Shown in pieces: positions 39,886 through 48,749 of a stretch of DNA of 64,000 nucleotides. The stretch's first letter is position 1; every line of letters starts with the position of its first letter. This DNA is from Desmodesmus armatus (lineage: Eukaryota; Chlorophyta; Chlorophyceae; Sphaeropleales; Scenedesmaceae): positions 310,001 to 374,000 of the forward strand of contig VIIQ02000106.1 in NCBI GenBank assembly GCA_007449985.2. The letters run 5' to 3'. A program made the translations under genes and the position numbers. The notes beneath the pieces are model-generated. The model was given only the letters and a program-made list of their open reading frames with translations, ran no database searches and was not told the origin of the DNA.

Positions 39886-39961
39886 GGGGGGGTGTGGACA
39901 GGTCACTGTCACCCTCACACACTCAGCGCTTGTCTGGCATATCGCTCATCTTGCACGACAG
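39886..39961 (+). repeat. 76-bp terminal inverted repeat, left
   Basis: Exactly complementary to 45332-45407. It begins with seven G residues then TGTGGACAGGTCACTG and ends in GCACGACAG. Flanking sequences outside the two repeats are unrelated. Confidence 0.9.
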
Positions 39962-40067
39962 TGGAGGGTGAGAGAAGTGAGGGAGGTGTGGGGGTTGAGG
40001 GGACTCCCCTCATCTGGATTGAGGGAGATGAGGGGGGTGAGGGAGATGTGGGGTTGAGCAAAATGAG

Positions 40068-42800
40068 GTGGAGGCAGGCGCCAGGGAGCAGCAGTTTCCC
40101 TGGCTGGTGGTGGCAGGCTGGCCTTGCCAGGACCTCTCCTTGGCTGGCAAAGCAGCCGGCCTGAGAGGTGAGAGGTCAGGGCTGTTGCATGAGCTTGTCA
40201 GAGTGATAGGAACTCTGCAGCAGCTGCAGCCTGACCTGCCACCAGCCTACCTGATTGAGAACGTGGCCTTTCAGTGCCACAACAACTCAACCATCTCTCA
40301 GCAGGACTTCAGCACGGTTTGCAGCATGATAGGACAGCCTGTCATGCTGGACGCAGCACAATTTGGCAGCCTGGCTCACAGGGTGCGCAACTGGTGGACA
40401 AACCTTTGCACACCGGCACAGTTAGCCAGCGCTGCCGCGCATGTCCAACGCCCAGCAGGCCGTACAGTCAGCGTGGCACTAGCAGCAGGTAGAACAGCAC
40501 AACCCGTGCGCACTGCTGACCGCCCGCCACGCTACTGTTGCAACGTGCCTGGTCAACCCATGCAGGCGTGGCCCACGTTTGTGGCTTACCCACAGTCGTA
40601 CGCCTTCCTGCCAGGAGAGCCTGGCAGCGTGCGCAATGCAGATGGCACATGGGATCAGCCCACAGCAGACGAGAGAGAGGTAGCAATGGGCTACCCCCAG
40701 GGCAGTACAGCCGCCCCGGGCGTGAGCGAACAGCAGCGCAGGCAAGCGCTAGGTGAGTCTATGGACTCCAACTGCACACAGTGCATCTTAGCAATAGCAG
40801 CAGCTTGGGCAAGGGTACAGCACCCTGAACACTTAGCAGCCACCGAGTACGGCTGTAGTTACGAGACAGCGTGTATGCTGTCAGCAGCAGCAGCAGCTGC
40901 GCAAGAGCAACTGTGCCCAAAGCAAGCGGCAGGTACAGATATCTGGCATGATGCAGCAGCCATGCACATGCTGCAGCAGGGCAAGATGCCTGAGGGCACC
41001 ACAGCAACAGATAGAAGTCGCATCACAAAGCGGCTGGCGTATTATCAATGGCAGCAAGGCAAGCTGCTGAGACGTATGCCTGACGGTTCTTGCAAACAGG
41101 TGCCAGCCCCCGAGGAGAGAACAGCAATCGTCCAGCAGCTACACAGCCGCTGCGGACACTTCGGAGTCAGGCGCACAGCCGCCCTTGTGCTGAACTCCTT
41201 CTGGTGGCACGGCCTGCAGGCTGACGTCGCACACCTGGTGAGTGGGTGTAAGGAGTGCAGCCGCATTCGTGCTACGTTCGGCAATGCAGAGCCGGCTGAG
41301 CTGCAGCCCCTGCCTATCAAGGGGTTGGGCTACCGCTGGGGGGTGGACCTGGCAGGGCCACTGCCCAAGACCCCTAGGGGGCATCAGTATGTCATGATAT
41401 GCGTGGAGCATTTCTCCAAGCACATAGAGGCTATCCCTATAGCCGACAAGACCCCAGAGTGCACCAGTTATGCCTTCACGCACAACGTGCTGGCACGCTT
41501 TGGGGCATGTGCTGAGCTAGTGCACGACAACGGCAGCGAGTGGGAAGGGGCCTTCAAGAGGATGATGCAGGAGGCCCTGATCGACTCACGGCCCACCTCT
41601 GCTAACCATCCACAGGCCAACGGCATGTCGGAGAAGTGTGTGCAGACTGTTAAGCGCGCACTCAAGAAGATGTGCTTAGAGAAGCAGTGCGTAGAGAACT
41701 GGGATCTGGAAATCCCGTGGCTGCTCATGGGGTACAGGTGCAGCCCCCAGAAGAGCACAGGGTTCTCCCCGTACGAGCTACTGTACGCACAGACACCTGT
41801 GCTGCCACCAGCTGTTGTGGCTAGGCTTGACAAAGCAATTGACTTTGACTCACCACAGCTGGCTGCCACTGACCTTGCCCGCCGCAGGGATCTGGTCAAG
41901 CAGCACTGCCCCATGGCACTGCAGAACCTGCTGATCGCCCAGCACCGGGACGAGCAGAGGTACAAGCACACACGGTCAGGCTCCTATCTGCCCAAGAAGC
42001 ATCGCTTCGAGGTGGGTGACTTTGTGTACACGAACCAGGCTAACACAGCCAACGCCTTACAGCCAAGGGCAAAGGCTGCAATTTACCGCATTCTCGAGGT
42101 CAGGCCATCAGGGCGCCTCATACTGCAAGGCAAGTGCGGCACGACCACAGACAGCCACATGTCTCAGTGTGCCCCCTGCCACCTGCCTGGCATCGACACA
42201 GCACTTGACACAACGCTCACAAGCAAGCCGCCAGAGGTAGCTTGTGATGCCTGCTCTTCAGTGCTGTCCAGCACACAGAACCCTGTCTTGCTGTGTGACG
42301 TCTGTGATGCAGGCTGGCACATGAAGTGCCTGCCCACACCCTTGGACACTGTGCCAGAAGGCAACTGGATGTGCCCAAGCTGCACCAGTGCAGGTGTGTC
42401 ACAGCAGCAGATGCAGTCAAAGGTTAGGGAGAGGTCCCTTAGGCAGCAGCTGGACGGCAAAGCGCCCCAGCTGTACCCTAACAAGGCCATGCGTGAGCGG
42501 GACACAGCAGCACAGCAGCTGCATGGACGGCTCATTCTGCAGAACTTTGTGGATCCATCCACGCAGCAATTGCGCCCCTACTGGGGTAGGTTACACTTTC
42601 AGGGCCCGCAGCGCCGCCCTGATTACTTTGACGTGCACTTTGAGGACGGTGACGTGTATAACTACACAGTTGCAGAGGCAAAGCCCTTGCTGCAACCTGT
42701 CGACGCTGTGCTGCCCGCAGGCATCACCCTGCCAGGCGATGACAAACTCACCCACGCAAGCGCGTCTCGCAGGCCAGCAGGCCGAGGACGGCAAGGGTAA
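40068..42800 (+). CDS. cytosine-5 DNA methyltransferase (5'-truncated) fused to integrase, PHD finger and Tudor-like tail
   Basis: A 910-residue frame, open from 40041; no ATG fits before the first domain, so the start is unknown. Residues ~13-270 are the C-terminal half of a C5-methyltransferase: motif IV GWPCQDLS with catalytic Cys20 (codon 40125), motif VI LIENV, motif VIII-like LAHRVRNWW, motif IX ADEREVAMGYP and motif X-like RRQALGESMDSN. SAM-binding motifs I-III are missing. Next comes a H2C2 zinc domain (H359, H364, C394, C397) and a retroviral-type integrase core with D427, D487 and E522, spacing D-D-35-E. A C4HC3 PHD finger covers 726-772 (first Cys to last), which by family could read histone tails, followed by a Tudor-like YWGRLHF...YFDVHFEDGDVY. 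Uninterrupted over 2.7 kb, suggesting recent selection. Whether methylation is active cannot be judged without motif I. Confidence 0.9.
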   Translation: MEAGAREQQFPWLVVAGWPCQDLSLAGKAAGLRGERSGLLHELVRVIGTLQQLQPDLPPAYLIENVAFQCHNNSTISQQDFSTVCSMIGQPVMLDAAQFGSLAHRVRNWWTNLCTPAQLASAAAHVQRPAGRTVSVALAAGRTAQPVRTADRPPRYCCNVPGQPMQAWPTFVAYPQSYAFLPGEPGSVRNADGTWDQPTADEREVAMGYPQGSTAAPGVSEQQRRQALGESMDSNCTQCILAIAAAWARVQHPEHLAATEYGCSYETACMLSAAAAAAQEQLCPKQAAGTDIWHDAAAMHMLQQGKMPEGTTATDRSRITKRLAYYQWQQGKLLRRMPDGSCKQVPAPEERTAIVQQLHSRCGHFGVRRTAALVLNSFWWHGLQADVAHLVSGCKECSRIRATFGNAEPAELQPLPIKGLGYRWGVDLAGPLPKTPRGHQYVMICVEHFSKHIEAIPIADKTPECTSYAFTHNVLARFGACAELVHDNGSEWEGAFKRMMQEALIDSRPTSANHPQANGMSEKCVQTVKRALKKMCLEKQCVENWDLEIPWLLMGYRCSPQKSTGFSPYELLYAQTPVLPPAVVARLDKAIDFDSPQLAATDLARRRDLVKQHCPMALQNLLIAQHRDEQRYKHTRSGSYLPKKHRFEVGDFVYTNQANTANALQPRAKAAIYRILEVRPSGRLILQGKCGTTTDSHMSQCAPCHLPGIDTALDTTLTSKPPEVACDACSSVLSSTQNPVLLCDVCDAGWHMKCLPTPLDTVPEGNWMCPSCTSAGVSQQQMQSKVRERSLRQQLDGKAPQLYPNKAMRERDTAAQQLHGRLILQNFVDPSTQQLRPYWGRLHFQGPQRRPDYFDVHFEDGDVYNYTVAEAKPLLQPVDAVLPAGITLPGDDKLTHASASRRPAGRGRQG

Positions 42801-42947
42801 CGTGCACGCCTGACCAGGGCCACAGCGGCAGCAACAGCAGCAGTAACAGCAGACTAGGACAGCAGTCCTGGGGGGTGGCAACCGGGGGGGCTACTGAGAC
42901 CCCTGCTGCCATGCACATCTGTTGTTCACTGCCTGTGCTGTGTAGGC
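42801..42947 (+). other. spacer between the fused ORF and the gag-like ORF
   Basis: 147 nt with a CAG-rich part, then a pyrimidine-rich run ending in gtgtag two bases before the ATG of the next ORF, which could be a splice acceptor. Confidence 0.4.
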
Positions 42948-44099
42948 ATGTCCGAACCAGAAGAGCTTTTGGATTATGAGGAGGAGGAGCCGGAGCTAGA
43001 GCCAGCAGCAGAGGCGACAGGGTCAGAAGCAGGGGAGGGAGAAGGGGATGAAGCAGATGGAGATGCAGGGGATGATGCAGGGGATGGCCTTGCAGAGGCA
43101 GAGGGCACAGACAGCGGGAGGCAGGAGGCAGCAGGCGACACAGTGCACTTGCCTCCCTTCGTGCACAAAGGCAGCAGGGTAGACGAGTGGCAGGACGGGG
43201 ACAGCTTAGATGCCGTCCCAATCCTGGGCAAGCTGCTGGGGATAGTGGCGCGCAGCTTGCGCCCGGGAGCACCGCAGCTGGAAGGGGGGTGGCTAGCAGC
43301 AAGCCTGTTCATCATGCGTGGCACGCAGGAGCACATCGCAGTGCCGCAGAGTGTGCTGTATCGGAGCAGCGTCAAGCTTTGCAGCAAGCTCGAGCCTCCG
43401 TCAGGCAAGCAAGTTTGCCCTGTGCACGGGGTGGGAAGCCATGGCGCAGAGAAGTGCGATGCACTCAAGCTGCGCGACGGCGAAACTGCCAAGCAGCATG
43501 AGGACAGGGTCCTGCCACAGCTTGTTGCACACCCCAACAGGACCGTCCCCAAGCAGGACTCTGGCAGGGGCAACAGCGGGCAGCGGGGACGAGGTGGCCG
43601 CGGCAGGCATGCGCACCAGCAGCAGGGGAGCAGTGGCCGCGGCAGACACGCAGGCCAGCAGCAGGGTTGGGGAGGCCGCGGCAGCAACGCAGGCCGGCAG
43701 CAGGAGCAGGGCGACTGGGGCGGGAGCGCAGGGCGTAACTGGGCGGATGAGATCAGGGCTGCAGCAGGGGAGCATCACGATGTCCGGGGTTGGGAGCAGC
43801 AGCATTATGAGCAGCACGACGACATGGGTTGGGATGAGGGGAAGCAGTACCAGCAGGACGGCAGGGGTTGGCGGCAGCAGTTCGAGCACGACGGCGGCAG
43901 GGGTTGGGAGGTGCAGCAGTATGAGCAGCACGACTGCAGGGGCGGGGATGGCCGGTATGCGCAGCAGGCGTACCACCCAGCACCTCCTCCTGGCTATGGG
44001 TGGGGAGGCGAGTATGGGGGGTACCAGTCAGCGGGGCAGTGGTATGGGCATGAGGGAGAGGCAGCAGGGTACGGAGGGGGGCGCCACTGCTGCGCCTGA
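42948..44099 (+). CDS. gag-like acidic/RGG protein with CHHC zinc knuckle
   Basis: A 383-residue frame. The first ~65 residues are strongly acidic (EEEEPELEP, EGDEADGDAGDD). A globular stretch follows, then CPVHGVGSHGAEKC, a C-x2-H-x4-H-x4-C knuckle (C157, H160, H165, C170) with the exact spacing of retroviral CCHC knuckles but His for the second Cys. The C-terminal half is an RGG/Gln/Gly-rich nucleic-acid-binding type tail with repeated GRGWEQQ-like units. The knuckle context resembles Gypsy gag proteins. Its place downstream of the integrase is the reverse of a normal gag-pol order. Alternatively it is a host-derived RGG protein. Confidence 0.65.
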   Translation: MSEPEELLDYEEEEPELEPAAEATGSEAGEGEGDEADGDAGDDAGDGLAEAEGTDSGRQEAAGDTVHLPPFVHKGSRVDEWQDGDSLDAVPILGKLLGIVARSLRPGAPQLEGGWLAASLFIMRGTQEHIAVPQSVLYRSSVKLCSKLEPPSGKQVCPVHGVGSHGAEKCDALKLRDGETAKQHEDRVLPQLVAHPNRTVPKQDSGRGNSGQRGRGGRGRHAHQQQGSSGRGRHAGQQQGWGGRGSNAGRQQEQGDWGGSAGRNWADEIRAAAGEHHDVRGWEQQHYEQHDDMGWDEGKQYQQDGRGWRQQFEHDGGRGWEVQQYEQHDCRGGDGRYAQQAYHPAPPPGYGWGGEYGGYQSAGQWYGHEGEAAGYGGGRHCCA

Positions 44100-44501: not shown

Positions 44502-44860
44502 GGCTGGTCACTGGCAGCGCACAGTCATAGCAGTTGGCTGGACCTCCGCAGCAGCAGTGTTGGAGGTGTGGCAAGTCAGCTGGTGGTTGTGACATTGTGT
44601 GTTGGGAGTTGTGAGGTTTGAGTGTGGTGGGGGTTTGATGAACTTGTGTGGGTTGGACAAACTGTTGTGACATGTTGTTTTCATCTTGGTATTGTGATTT
44701 AATCCTGCTTTTGCATGCTGTTATCTTTATTGCGTGGTTGCTCACACAAGCACACATGCCCGTTGTGCTGTGATGCTTGTGGGGGGGTGTGATGTAGAGT
44801 CAGCGCCTATCTGTCATGGCGCCCATGTTGTACGACAGCTGTCAGGCCCGATTCCAATCA

Positions 44861-45330
44861 TGTGGCTGCCGATCCCTTTTGCTACTACCCCCGCAGCCAG
44901 GGGAACACCGCACAGCTGGCTGTCCAACTGATTGGTAACCTTTCGTGCCTGCAAGCTGAGATCTGGACGCGTATCATTCGGAGAATGGAAGCACACATGG
45001 GCCTGTGCCCGGATAAGATGAATGGATTACATCTCGACTGCTCTGGGCCGCTCAGCCCTTGGCTGGCGGCCTCAGCCTGATACTCCTGATCCTTTCAGTG
45101 TCTCTGTGTGTGTGATTCAACGCGTGCCGTGCACCGGCACGCGCGCAGCCTTATGCTGTGAGTGCAGAATCTCAACAGACATAACAGGCACTGCAAGTGC
45201 CACCTGGCACTCTGAGTGACAACCTGTCTTAGGGCACCACAAGCCCTCTGGAATGCTTTCCAACACACCTCAACTGCTGTTGCACAGCAGTGCAGCCCTA
45301 ATCGGGTGCATGACCCAATCGGGTATGACA
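44861..45330 (+). repeat. 470-bp LTR-like direct repeat, copy 1
   Basis: Starts TGTGGCTGCC and ends GGGTATGACA, the TG...CA ends of a long terminal repeat. It is more than 99% identical to 46321-46790 (one difference noticed near 45149). It directly abuts the right TIR. Its edges are also flanked by an inverted CGACAGCTGTC motif near 44832-44842 and 45326-45337. Confidence 0.85.
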
Positions 45331-45331
45331 G

Positions 45332-45407
45332 CTGTCGTGCAAGATGAGCGATATGCCAGACAAGCGCTGAGTGTGTGAGGGTGACAGTGACCTGTCCACA
45401 CCCCCCC
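45332..45407 (-). repeat. 76-bp terminal inverted repeat, right
   Basis: Reverse complement identical to 39886-39961 over all 76 positions. One further C follows on the right side. Confidence 0.9.
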
Positions 45408-46320
45408 CAAACGCAACACACAGGCAAAGCAAGGCTGAGCATGTGTGAGGAGTTTGCTGCTCACAGGTCACACATTGAGTGGAATGCCACAACTGAATCA
45501 CAGGATGCACAACCGCAACACACCAACTGGGGGTACCGTCCATCACCCCCCTTGCACTTTGCCAAGGTCACATGCATCACGTGCACCACCACAAGCCACT
45601 ACTGCTGACGCTTTCAGCACTCAGGTGCTGCACAACCTGCCCAATGACTGCTCCATCGTGTGTGCCTTTGCTTGGCACATCACCACTGCTGCTGCTGCGG
45701 CTAAGCATGGGCACGCCTAGCCTTGGTGGGGCTTGCTTTCCCACAATCTGGCTGCGCTCTTGCCCATCACTAACACAATGGAACCACTCTGCTCTATGGT
45801 GTGTGCTTTTGCTTGACACATCACCACTGCTACTGCTGCGGCTATGCATGGGCCGCCTGGCCTTGGTGGGGCTTGCTTTCCCACAATCTGGCTGCGCTCT
45901 TGCCCATCACTACACAAGGGGGACGCTGTGTCCACAGGTGCTTCCCTGCTGCATTATGCACCCCTGCTGGATTCGCCACACTCTAATGTAGCACATGGAG
46001 GAGGGGCACTGCTGCTGACAAGCCTCTGCTGTGGTGTCCGGCTCTGGCGCTCTTCGCTCTGGCTCTGAGATCACTCCTCCAGTTCGGTCATGTAGCACGT
46101 TGTACGACGCTTTGACAACGCTGCAGGTCCTCTGCTGCCTCCATGCGAGCTCCCTGCTGTGGGACTACTGCTGCTGCTGCTCCTGTCCAAAATTGCTTGC
46201 TTGGGTGACTGCTGTGGCACTGCACACGACTGCATGGACGATAAAACAAACCCAATAATCCTCGATATTATCCTGCTGCAGAAACCCAGCTGCAAGGCAC
46301 TACGGGCTTGACGCGTTGAA
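45408..46320. other. spacer between TIR element and second LTR-like repeat
   Basis: Non-coding. It contains a tandem duplication of ~140 bp (about 45640-45780 and 45781-45920) sharing a long block from ccttggtggggcttgc to cttgcccatcac. If the two 470-bp repeats are LTRs, this 0.99-kb interval would be the internal part of a coding-free miniature element. Confidence 0.5.
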
Positions 46321-46790
46321 TGTGGCTGCCGATCCCTTTTGCTACTACCCCCGCAGCCAGGGGAACACCGCACAGCTGGCTGTCCAACTGATTGGTAACC
46401 TTTCGTGCCTGCAAGCTGAGATCTGGACGCGTATCATTCGGAGAATGGAAGCACACATGGGCCTGTGCCCGGATAAGATGAATGGATTACATCTCGACTG
46501 CTCTGGGCCGCTCAGCCCTTGGCTGGCGGCCTCAGCCTGATACTCCTGATCCTTTCAGTGTCTCTGTGTGTGTGATTCAACGCGTGCCGTGCACCGGCAC
46601 GCGCTCAGCCTTATGCTGTGAGTGCAGAATCTCAACAGACATAACAGGCACTGCAAGTGCCACCTGGCACTCTGAGTGACAACCTGTCTTAGGGCACCAC
46701 AAGCCCTCTGGAATGCTTTCCAACACACCTCAACTGCTGTTGCACAGCAGTGCAGCCCTAATCGGGTGCATGACCCAATCGGGTATGACA
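46321..46790 (+). repeat. 470-bp LTR-like direct repeat, copy 2
   Basis: Matches 44861-45330 along its whole length. On its right it runs straight into a C-rich stretch that is complementary in character to the minisatellite downstream. No 4-6-bp target duplication with the left flank of copy 1 was found. Confidence 0.85.
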
Positions 46791-47130
46791 CCACATCTGC
46801 CACATCTCCCTCACCCTCCTCATCTCCCTCACCCCCTTGCTGCCCTCATCAGCCCCCTCGCTTTGCTCAATCCCCTCGCTTCCCTCCACCCCCTCATTAC
46901 CGTCTTTCCCTTTGACCCCCTCGGTCGCCTAATTGCAACTTGCCCCCTTCCCTCAACCCCTCACTGCCCCCCTGCCGTCCCTTTACACACCTCCCCACTG
47001 CCCTCCTTTTACCAACCCAAAGTCCTTCTGTCCCTTGACCCCCTCAGTCCGCACTTCTCCTCCTCTTCACACCTTGTCCTTGCACTGCACAACAACTTGT
47101 TGAAGAATTAGTGCTTGAGGAGTTGGGGGA
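46791..47130. repeat. C-rich tract facing the G-rich minisatellite
   Basis: Positions 46791-46900 are made of ctccctcacccc-type units, the reverse complement of the minisatellite motif that begins ~240 nt later, so the two form a large imperfect foldback. The rest is pyrimidine-rich and non-coding. Confidence 0.6.
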
Positions 47131-48655
47131 GATATGGGGTTTGAGGGAGTGTGGGAGGTGAGGGAGATGTGGGGGATGAGGGAGATGTGGGGGATGAGGG
47201 AGATGTGGGGCATGAGGGAGATGTGCGGGATGAGGGAGATGTGGGGGATGAGGGAGATGTGGGGGATGAGGGAGATGAGGGGGATGAGGGAGATGTGGGG
47301 GATGAGGGAGATGCGGGGGATGAGGGAGATGTGGGGCATGAGGGAGATGTGGGGGATGAGGGGGATGTGGGGGATGAGGGGGTGTGGGGGATGAGGGTGA
47401 TGTGGGGCATGAGGGGGGTGTGGGGCATGAGGGGAATGTGGGGGATGAGGGAGATGTGGGGGATGAGGGAGATGTGGGGGATGAGGGAGATGTGGGGCAT
47501 GAGGGGGATGTGGGGCATGAGGGGGATGTGGGGGATGTGGGGGATGAGGGGATGTGGGGGATGAGGGGGATGTGGGGGATGAGGGGGGTGTGGGGGATGA
47601 GGGGAATGTGGGGGATGAGGGGAATGTGGGGGATGAGGGAGATGTGGGGGATGAGGGAGATGTGGGGCATGAGGGGGATGTGGGGCATGAGGGGGATGTG
47701 GGGCATGAGGGGGATGTGGGGGATGAGGGGAATGTGGGGGATGAGGGGGATGTGGGGGATGAGGGAGATGTGGGGCATGAGGGAGATGTGGGGCATGAGG
47801 GGGATGTGGGGGATGAGGGGGATGTGGGGGATGAGGGGGATGTGGGGGATGAGGGTGATGTGGGGCATGAGGGGGGTGTGGGGGATGAGGGGAATGTGGG
47901 GGATGAGGGAGATGTGGGGCATGAGGGGGATGTGGGGGATGAGGGGGATGTGGGGGATGAGGGGGGATGTGGGGGATGAGGGGGATGTGGGGGATGAGGG
48001 GATGTGGGGGATGAGGGTGATGTGGGGCATGAGGGGTGTGTGGGGGATGAGGGGGATGTGGGGGATGAGGGGATGTGGGGGATGAGGGGGATGTGGGGGA
48101 TGAGGGGATGTGGGGGATGAGGGTGATGTGGGGCATGAGGGGGGTGTGGGGGGTGAGGGGAATGTGGGGGATGTGGGGGATGAGGGGGATGTGGGGGATG
48201 AGGGGGATGTGGGGCATGAGGGGGGTGTGGGGGATGAGGGGGGTGTGGGGGATGAGGGAGATGTGGGGGATGAGGGAGATGTGGGGAATGTGGGGGGAGG
48301 GAGATGAGGGAGATGTGGGGGATGAGGGAGATGTGGGGCATGAGGGAGATGAGGCAGATGTTGGGGATGAGGGAGATGTGGGGGATGAGGGAGATGTGGG
48401 GGATGAGGGAGATGTGGGGAATGTGGGGGATGAGAGAGATGAGGGAGATGTGGGGGATGAGGGAGATGTGGGGGATGTGGGAGATGTGGGGGATGAGGCA
48501 GATGTGGGGGATGAGGGGGATGTGGGGAATGTGGGGGATGAGGGGGATGAGGGAGATGTGGGGCATGAGGGAGATGAGGGAGATGTGGGGCATGAGGGAG
48601 ATGAGGCAGATGTGGGGGATGAGGGAGATGAGGGGGATGAGGGAGATGAGGGAAA
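47131..48655 (+). repeat. 1.5-kb G-rich minisatellite, 9/18-bp unit
   Basis: Alternating 9-mers GATGTGGGG and GATGAGGG(A/G) form an 18-bp higher-order unit repeated some 80 times, with variants (CATGAGGGG) and occasional 1-2-base slips. Because the unit is a multiple of three without stops, long frames open on both strands; these are artefacts. G-runs every ~9 nt give strong G-quadruplex potential on the plus strand. Confidence 0.95.
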
Positions 48656-48749
48656 TGCTGCTAAGTTTGTTGATAGTAGTTTTGCAAATAATACCCGCAC
48701 TATGAACTATGAGAAAATTGCACAGAAAACGTTGATGATGGTATAAGCA

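Follow-up and report, generated by a model that had tools for sequence, protein, structure and literature searches.

The 64,000-nucleotide stretch of the Desmodesmus armatus genome analysed here (contig VIIQ02000106.1, positions 310,001 to 374,000; hereafter the window) contains a Ty3/Gypsy-type retrotransposon in truncated form. Its coding region joins a C5 DNA methyltransferase to a Gypsy-type integrase and a PHD finger within a single polyprotein of an algal mobile element, as had been proposed from the sequence alone, and fuller copies are bounded by split repeats arranged as A1-coding-G tract-B1-GC-A2-B2 in four autonomous families. The identity and the anatomy of the element are practically certain. 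The best overall explanation of the data, in which we place good confidence, is a Gypsy-type element whose insertion probably proceeds through a DNA circle. Labels beginning with C denote places in this same genome, the one genome on which the split-repeat analysis rests.

The window copy

A single stop-free frame of 919 codons was found at 40041-42800 on the plus strand by an open reading frame (ORF) check. The original prediction had described it as one uninterrupted frame of 910 codons; the frame is indeed open, yet it is not complete, its front being missing. A genome search with the frame returned close copies in C589, C211, C180 and C147 (97-99% identity) and one further C180 match at 83%, other matches being more distant or fragmentary. 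All five begin at query base 27, which corresponds to 40067, and motif I, RNase H and reverse transcriptase (RT) lie upstream in a fuller copy. The bases before 40067 are minisatellite-like flank, and the same type of stretch recurs downstream. Over the segment 40067-44855 identity with the C589 copy is 96.8%; the segment includes the following features, all on the plus strand.

40067..42797, plus strand: 5'-truncated pol fragment; the frame enters from flanking sequence at 40041
40067..40871, plus strand: DNMT3-type methyltransferase domain, C-terminal part, with PCQ, ENV, HRVRN and LGESMDSN; motif I absent here; end approximate
41109..41270, plus strand: integrase H2C2 zinc-binding domain (Pfam, residues 357-410)
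41331..41633, plus strand: integrase core, with D (41346), D (41526) and E (41631)
42243..42383, plus strand: PHD finger (Pfam, residues 735-781)
42525..42698, plus strand: Tudor-like tail, weak (PF21743, E 0.0015, in a 1937-aa relative only)
42858..44096, plus strand: ORF3, 413 codons stop to stop; present in the C589 copy too (86% over 295 aa)
44781..44787, plus strand: G7 tract, presumed polypurine tract, directly 5' of B1; the C147, C20 and C78 copies have similar tracts
44788..44837, plus strand: B1 repeat, terminating in ...ACGACA
44838..44855, plus strand: GC spacer and first 16 bases of A2, where the window copy breaks off

Profile searches along the frame recovered, in this order, a partial DNA_methylase (E 1.8e-8), Integrase_H2C2 (E 1.8e-13), rve (E 2e-5, 25.2 bits, under the cut-off of 32.6) and PHD (E 2.7e-8). 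The first match is limited to profile positions 64-150 of 324 because the front of the methyltransferase is missing. The motifs named in the original prediction are essentially correct, and the prediction as such is confirmed in part. The PCQ and ENV motifs are present as described, and the RxR-like motif reads HRVR. The integrase triad (D436, D496 and E531 in frame numbering) is in place, with 34 residues separating the last two instead of the 35 claimed. The nearest solved chains of the PHD finger include CHD4, PHF12, Lid and KDM5A. The Tudor-like end is seen in the 1937-aa relative only, under the Pfam cut-off, and was not called by Pfam in the window copy. ORF3 of the window has no Pfam match, and no detectable similarity to ORF3 of the most abundant family.

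Fuller copies and families

The apparent lack of an RT, mentioned in the original prediction, is a consequence of truncation, as fuller copies encode both RT and RNase H. PF00145 matches 64 places in the genome, pieces of host genes among them. The C589 frame (1702 codons) codes for RT, RNase H, methyltransferase with motif I (VEPFGGLCAGLE), H2C2, rve and PHD. Motif I, for which the original prediction had proposed a search of the same genome, is present in C589, as it is in ten local copies that were aligned. The domain order of ORF2 in fuller copies is RT-RNase H-DNMT3-type methyltransferase-integrase-PHD-Tudor-like (weak), and ORF3 comes next. In C589 the ORF ahead of pol carries a zinc-knuckle-like motif and a DSG protease-like motif, as does ORF1 of the most abundant (main) family. 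Hydrophobic stretches of membrane-segment length are found near the C-terminus of ORF1 in both families examined (L011 1-3438, L019 210-2369).

In the main family ORF2 is 1937 aa long and codes for the same set of domains. Pairwise comparison of seven copies of this family gave 0-11 mismatches and 0-11 gap bases in the longest aligned piece (5.9-9.9 kb), and its A repeat is 100% identical at the places scored, at least 40 in number. The same Pfam domains were found in a third family (C78). The fourth (C123/C440/C829) matches the DNMT profile, and is 64-71% identical in DNA to the main family in the regions of RT, DNMT and integrase-PHD. Judged from the positions of A1 and B2, the elements span roughly 11-14 kb.

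The RT-RNase H-integrase order, with RT and RNase H closest to Ty3, is that of Ty3/Gypsy elements; the nearest solved RT is Ty3, and the nearest solved integrase that of the foamy virus PFV, followed by Ty3. TG...CA ends and a short target-site duplication (TSD; 4 bp in 7/9 copies with both ends read, 4-6 bp being typical of the group) point the same way. In turn, two identical long terminal repeats (LTRs) around the coding region are replaced by A1 ... B1-GC-A2-B2. The split direct repeats A-coding-B-A-B are those of DIRS/PAT-like elements, yet a tyrosine recombinase acting without target duplication is not part of the picture: PF00589 is absent from the 7 ORFs scanned, and a DDE integrase with a 4-bp TSD occurs instead. 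No chromodomain was matched by Pfam; PHD and the weak Tudor stand in that place.

Public relatives and the methyltransferase

The set of relatives comprises 115 public proteins found with the methyltransferase region plus 4 local sequences. The five domains RT-RNase H-DNMT-integrase-PHD occur in order in 76/119, and shorter consistent sub-sets in 42 (19, 9, 7, 6 and 1). As 118/119 proteins thus show this order or a part of it, a local fusion of two elements through rearrangement, the caveat attached to the original prediction, was rejected. P0115, the sole exception, has DNMT alone by the order test; Pfam puts a weak DNMT ahead of RT, and its order therefore differs. This protein is distant (26% identical), with the methyltransferase-like domain before RT within one ORF. 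Names among the relatives include Scenedesmus sp. PABB004, Haematococcus lacustris, Tetrabaena socialis, Pleodorina starrii, Volvox africanus and Chlamydomonas eustigma; P0004 and P0035 look like transcriptome ORFs, judging from the prefix of their names. These species names, as well as light-harvesting genes found in pieces, are in keeping with a chlorophyte. A query with integrase-PHD matched 135 proteins, the best 120 of which were taken; 70 new proteins were among the matches listed, 62 of them with a recognisable methyltransferase domain. No protein named after Klebsormidium was among the matches listed in these searches. Viral contigs yielded 7 weak loci (29-43% identity), and the GTDB contigs scanned no relative. 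As for a donor of the methyltransferase, among at least 44 profile matches, many of them short, there was no host or bacterial gene name beyond generic labels.

The catalytic Cys is kept in 117/117 proteins with a residue at the site, the Glu of ENV in 118/118, and the two Arg of RxR in 115/117 and 116/117. Motif IV reads PC in 64/117 and EC in 47/117. According to profile alignments, the volvocine proteins P0161 (Tetrabaena), P0175 (Pleodorina) and P0183 (Volvox africanus) keep the domain and have lost motifs IV, VI and VIII; Cys, Glu and Arg are retained in Haematococcus P0162 and C. eustigma P0212.

A 10-row sequence profile hit DNMT3A first (E 1e-9) and M.HhaI after (1.3e-5). A poor AlphaFold model was obtained from a 10-row input (predicted local distance difference test, pLDDT, 50), a good one from a 35-row input (pLDDT 95). 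All 50 PDB matches listed for the latter are DNMT3-family entries (best E 5e-17); in the best rows against catalytic-domain chains the template modelling (TM) score is 0.76-0.80 by target and 0.51-0.60 by query. Matches in a viral structure library were weaker (best 3.9e-15, root mean square deviation 18.4). Ratios of non-synonymous to synonymous change (dN/dS) between the C589 and C180 subfamilies are 0.13 for DNMT, 0.05 for integrase, 0.06 for RT and 0.23 for PHD. With its motifs and its predicted DNMT3 fold, the protein is a candidate active C5 enzyme. The element may write methylation, read histone marks and target itself, as originally envisaged; what the data show is the conservation of catalytic residues, the predicted fold and purifying selection.

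Some data do not favor such a role. Between the closest window-family copies the DNMT dN/dS is 0.43-0.46, on 19 or fewer changes, and these copies may therefore be drifting. In the window the observed/expected ratio of CpG is about 0.48 and that of TpG and CpA close to 1.6, a pattern like that of methylated genomes; yet depletion is genome-wide (element 0.43-0.57, background 0.50). Since element and background are alike, CpG depletion is uninformative on self-methylation, and was rejected as a mark of it. CpG transitions per site exceed other transitions 2.1-3.2 times in seven window-family pairs; in eight other pairs, with few changes, the ratio spans 0 to 9, one pair having none.

Ends, repeats and joints

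In the main family the 3' end consists of B1 (50 bp), GC, A2 (about 587 bp) and B2 (50 bp), the 5' end of A1 alone. The 5' end was readable in 15 of 19 fetched stretches, and all start with TGACAC after the flank; flanks differ, save for the similar pairs C558/C559 and C581/C582. Elements open with TG and close with CA. A 4-bp duplication was found in 5 of the 7 main-family copies with both ends read (CCAA, CTGT, GGCG, GGAC, TCCT), in C147 of the window family (GCAC) and in the C78 family (TTGT). The B1-GC-A2 joints of the four families read GTCA-GC-TGAC, GACA-GC-TGTC, GTCA-GC-TGTC and GTCA-GC-TGAC, and a run of 7-8 G stands directly 5' of B1 in three of the four.

The two joints of the 3' tail behave differently. 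In the main family B1-GC-A2 is identical in all 31 cases found. The A2-B2 joint, read in 22, is direct in 12, and carries an extra A in 6, an extra T in 3, and AAGCCA in one, and it differs among near-identical copies. A 136-bp indel marks the main family, and is clearly lacking only in C20 (+T) and C61 (direct); among its carriers, C40 and C41 have +T, while C13, C654 and C589 are among those with the direct joint. The direct and the +T joint thus occur with and without the indel, and the joint does not simply follow lineage. A1 is followed by AAGCC. The inserted A, and the AAGCC of AAGCCA, match these bases, and therefore seem to be what is left of the presumed primer side of a cDNA end.

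Tail-to-tail inverted copies, joined close to the A2 end, occur in three families (C589:77975-78977, C634:12995-16663, C167:20625-21583), with spacers of about 47, 0 and 30 bases, respectively. They may be either replication by-products or assembly fold-backs.

A proposed circle route for insertion

In the model proposed the G tract acts as polypurine tract, and reverse transcription would yield a linear cDNA whose LTR is B-GC-A, because the tract directly precedes B1. The cDNA ends, i.e. the end of A and the start of B, would then be joined into a two-LTR circle, leaving an imprecise A|B joint. The target of the integrase would be the palindromic ...CA-GC-TG... within the left LTR rather than the joined ends. 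The opened circle, inserted with a 4-bp stagger, would give A1-coding-polypurine tract-B1-GC-A2|B2, as observed. This route seems to us somewhat better supported than not by the sequences compared. Slightly more doubtful is the general form of the proposal, namely that a DDE integrase may normally integrate from a closed circle, that the ends set by reverse transcription and by integration may be different sites, and that each insertion may carry the end joint as a birth mark. As weaker steps of the scheme, the methyltransferase might provide newly made double-stranded cDNA with de novo marks, and the integrase might be tethered to chromatin by the PHD/Tudor tail; an action of the enzyme on the element's own cDNA is suggested tentatively.

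Several points count against the model. Nine of 31 main-family tails are off the A2|B2 pattern; the three of these that were examined are C39 (a rearranged joint) and two C634 copies (tail to tail). Remnants of the primer side do not explain the last A of AAGCCA, nor the +T. In a two-LTR circle the CA-GC-TG site would be present twice, in identical form; yet each of the 31 B-GC-A joints is at the 3' tail and B-GC precedes A1 in none of the 15 5' ends read, so strict choice of the left site lacks explanation. In the retroviral precedents it is the end joint itself that is cut, whereas CA-GC-TG lies inside the LTR. The C718 and C671 copies end at the end of B1 (A-coding-B), and C797 resembles them in repeat map only; the first two fit one-LTR circles, but fit recombination between B1 and B2 too. 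Among the 7 main-family copies with both ends read, C582 and C629 have no TSD. At the boundary adopted for the C440 copy a G tract is missing, and a canonical (TGG-type) tRNA primer-binding site was not seen by eye after A1 in the four families.

Alternative explanations

Replication might instead follow the scheme of DIRS/PAT-like elements. An RNA running from A1 to B2 would have its ends restored by an internal B1-A2 splint, the DDE integrase would replace the tyrosine recombinase, and A2|B2 would be templated. The repeat order is the one reported for two elements discussed below, SymbioDIRS-Dnmt3 and KnitGypsy-Dnmt3, and the invariance of the internal B1-GC-A2 junction is in keeping with a splint. 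According to this view, however, the A2|B2 joint should be inherited, while it varies between near-identical copies and cross-cuts the indel marker; moreover, the G tract before B1 is left without explanation. We thus consider this scheme rather unlikely. Split repeats and variable joints could also be assembly artefacts, due to the collapse of near-identical repeats, as many copies lie near contig ends and the palindromes in C589, C634 and C167 could be fold-backs. The plan is common to four families, and includes copies with TSDs well inside contigs (C654, C13, C39, C78 and C147), which makes an artefact very improbable.

Other alternatives concern the coding region. Ginger DNA transposons have no RT and are bounded by terminal inverted repeats (TIRs). 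The frame at 40041-42800 taken alone, along with 76-bp inverted arms, had led the original prediction to a TIR-bounded element with methyltransferase, Gypsy/Ginger-type integrase and PHD, but no RT. Both arms (39886-39961 and 45332-45407) represent the same repeat unit, which belongs to a distinct element of 1.93 kb; the fuller copies are of Ty3/Gypsy type, with RT and RNase H, without TIRs, and with true ends TG...CA flanked by a 4-bp TSD. The Ginger part of the assignment fails, and we give this origin virtually no credit. Finally, the methyltransferase domain could be a structural or nucleic acid-binding relic, and not an active enzyme. The motif losses of P0161, P0175 and P0183, as well as EC in place of PC in motif IV, would suit a relic. 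The near invariance elsewhere of Cys, the Glu of ENV and RxR, the low dN/dS between subfamilies, and a DNMT3 fold predicted to be complete argue for an enzyme, and make a relic improbable.

Comparison with known systems

By its description the closest published precedent is KnitGypsy-Dnmt3 of Klebsormidium nitens (de Mendoza et al. 2018, PMC5890265), in which a Dnmt3-type methyltransferase resides in an intronless Gypsy Pol ORF under purifying selection, and the 'structure of repeats the same as that of a DIRS retrotransposon' is reported (Fig. 4 legend). Both traits, Dnmt3-type DNMT in a Gypsy Pol and DIRS-like repeats, are found here. In its available portion, the main text of that paper mentions neither PHD nor chlorophyte, and target duplications, joint analysis or a replication model for KnitGypsy-Dnmt3 were not found there. 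The same source describes in Symbiodinium SymbioDIRS-Dnmt3, with Dnmt3 in Pol, A-coding-B-A-B repeats and a DNMT that methylates CG de novo; this element has a tyrosine recombinase, whereas the algal one has a DDE integrase and 4-bp target duplications. Gypsy-10_Ec32 of Ectocarpus has a Gypsy Pol with a C-terminal Tudor domain, and was called the first transposable element with one (PMC12477816); PHD is not mentioned in that article, and in the part of it available no methyltransferase was found for the element. The article on KnitGypsy-Dnmt3 is the one paper on DNMT-encoding retrotransposons that the literature searches yielded; in a text that cites it, methylase-encoding retrotransposons of Gypsy and DIRS clades are said, without detail, to occur in green algae among others (PMC6338049, as far as available). 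No further DNMT-encoding retrotransposon appears in the accessible parts of PMC9998398 and PMC11244446, and methyltransferase is not mentioned in PMC8226300. In the literature searched, which covered few subscription papers, neither the PHD-DNMT combination nor target duplications alongside repeats of this kind were found. The PHD/Tudor combination and the behavior of the repeats are thus new as far as searched, while the capture of a methyltransferase by a Gypsy Pol had already been published. Formerly described in one charophyte, this capture now extends to many relatives, chlorophytes where they bear a name, and comes with a chromatin reader.

Chromoviruses carry a chromatin reader (a chromodomain) C-terminal to the Gypsy integrase, have ordinary LTRs and lack a methyltransferase. 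A reader after the integrase is a shared trait; here it is a PHD finger with a weak Tudor, plus the methyltransferase.

DIRS1-like elements combine circle-type repeats with Dam-type enzymes. As circle-type repeats are found in these as well as in SymbioDIRS-Dnmt3 and KnitGypsy-Dnmt3, the methyltransferase may, by analogy, serve nuclear circular cDNA. The link is weakened by SymbioLINE-Dnmt, which has a DNMT without circle-type repeats, and by Ngaro and Viper elements, which have no methyltransferase. Natural variants with a dead-looking methyltransferase provide a direct comparison for the use of the enzyme to the element.

Two-LTR circles have long been held to be dead ends in retroviruses, though some authors disagree (PMC4372172, PMC1180852). 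As far as the accessible parts of these sources go, PFV integrase was reported to cut the palindromic junction of two-LTR circles to give linear DNA (PMC1180852), the HIV-1 enzyme does so in vitro with its own junction (PMC1905944), and HIV-1 two-LTR circles may feed integration (PMC4372172). Likeness to the algal element as modelled here lies in the end-joined cDNA circle, in a palindromic junction cut by the integrase, six bases long in PFV as is CA-GC-TG here, and in circles argued to be functional intermediates. In the viruses the palindrome cut is the end joint; in the element it would lie inside the LTR, the end joint being carried into the inserted copy. The insertion mechanism that we infer is unexpected and testable. 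If the circle is a regular productive form, integration of circles by a DDE integrase becomes directly testable, dozens of very young copies being at hand.

Other features of the window

A non-autonomous element with the same split-repeat plan was recognised by repeat comparison next to the truncated copy, which ends 16 bases into A2, close to its start.

44860..46790, minus strand: 1.93-kb non-autonomous element
46790-46320, minus strand: A1 of this element
45408-45401, minus strand: G tract
45400-45333, minus strand: B1
45332-45331, minus strand: GC spacer
45330-44860, minus strand: A2
39886..39961, plus strand: G tract and B unit of the same element, formerly read as left 'TIR' arm

B2 is not in place at the window copy. 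The joint reads GACA-GC-TGTC (45327-45336), and eight more near full-length copies exist in the genome. The left arm is found apart from the element, so some rearrangement happened there. No tRNAs were found in the window. A long minisatellite of GAGGGAGATGTGGGG type, with 9/18-bp spacing, extends at about 47030-48700; a short piece of it also adjoins the truncation point at 40067.

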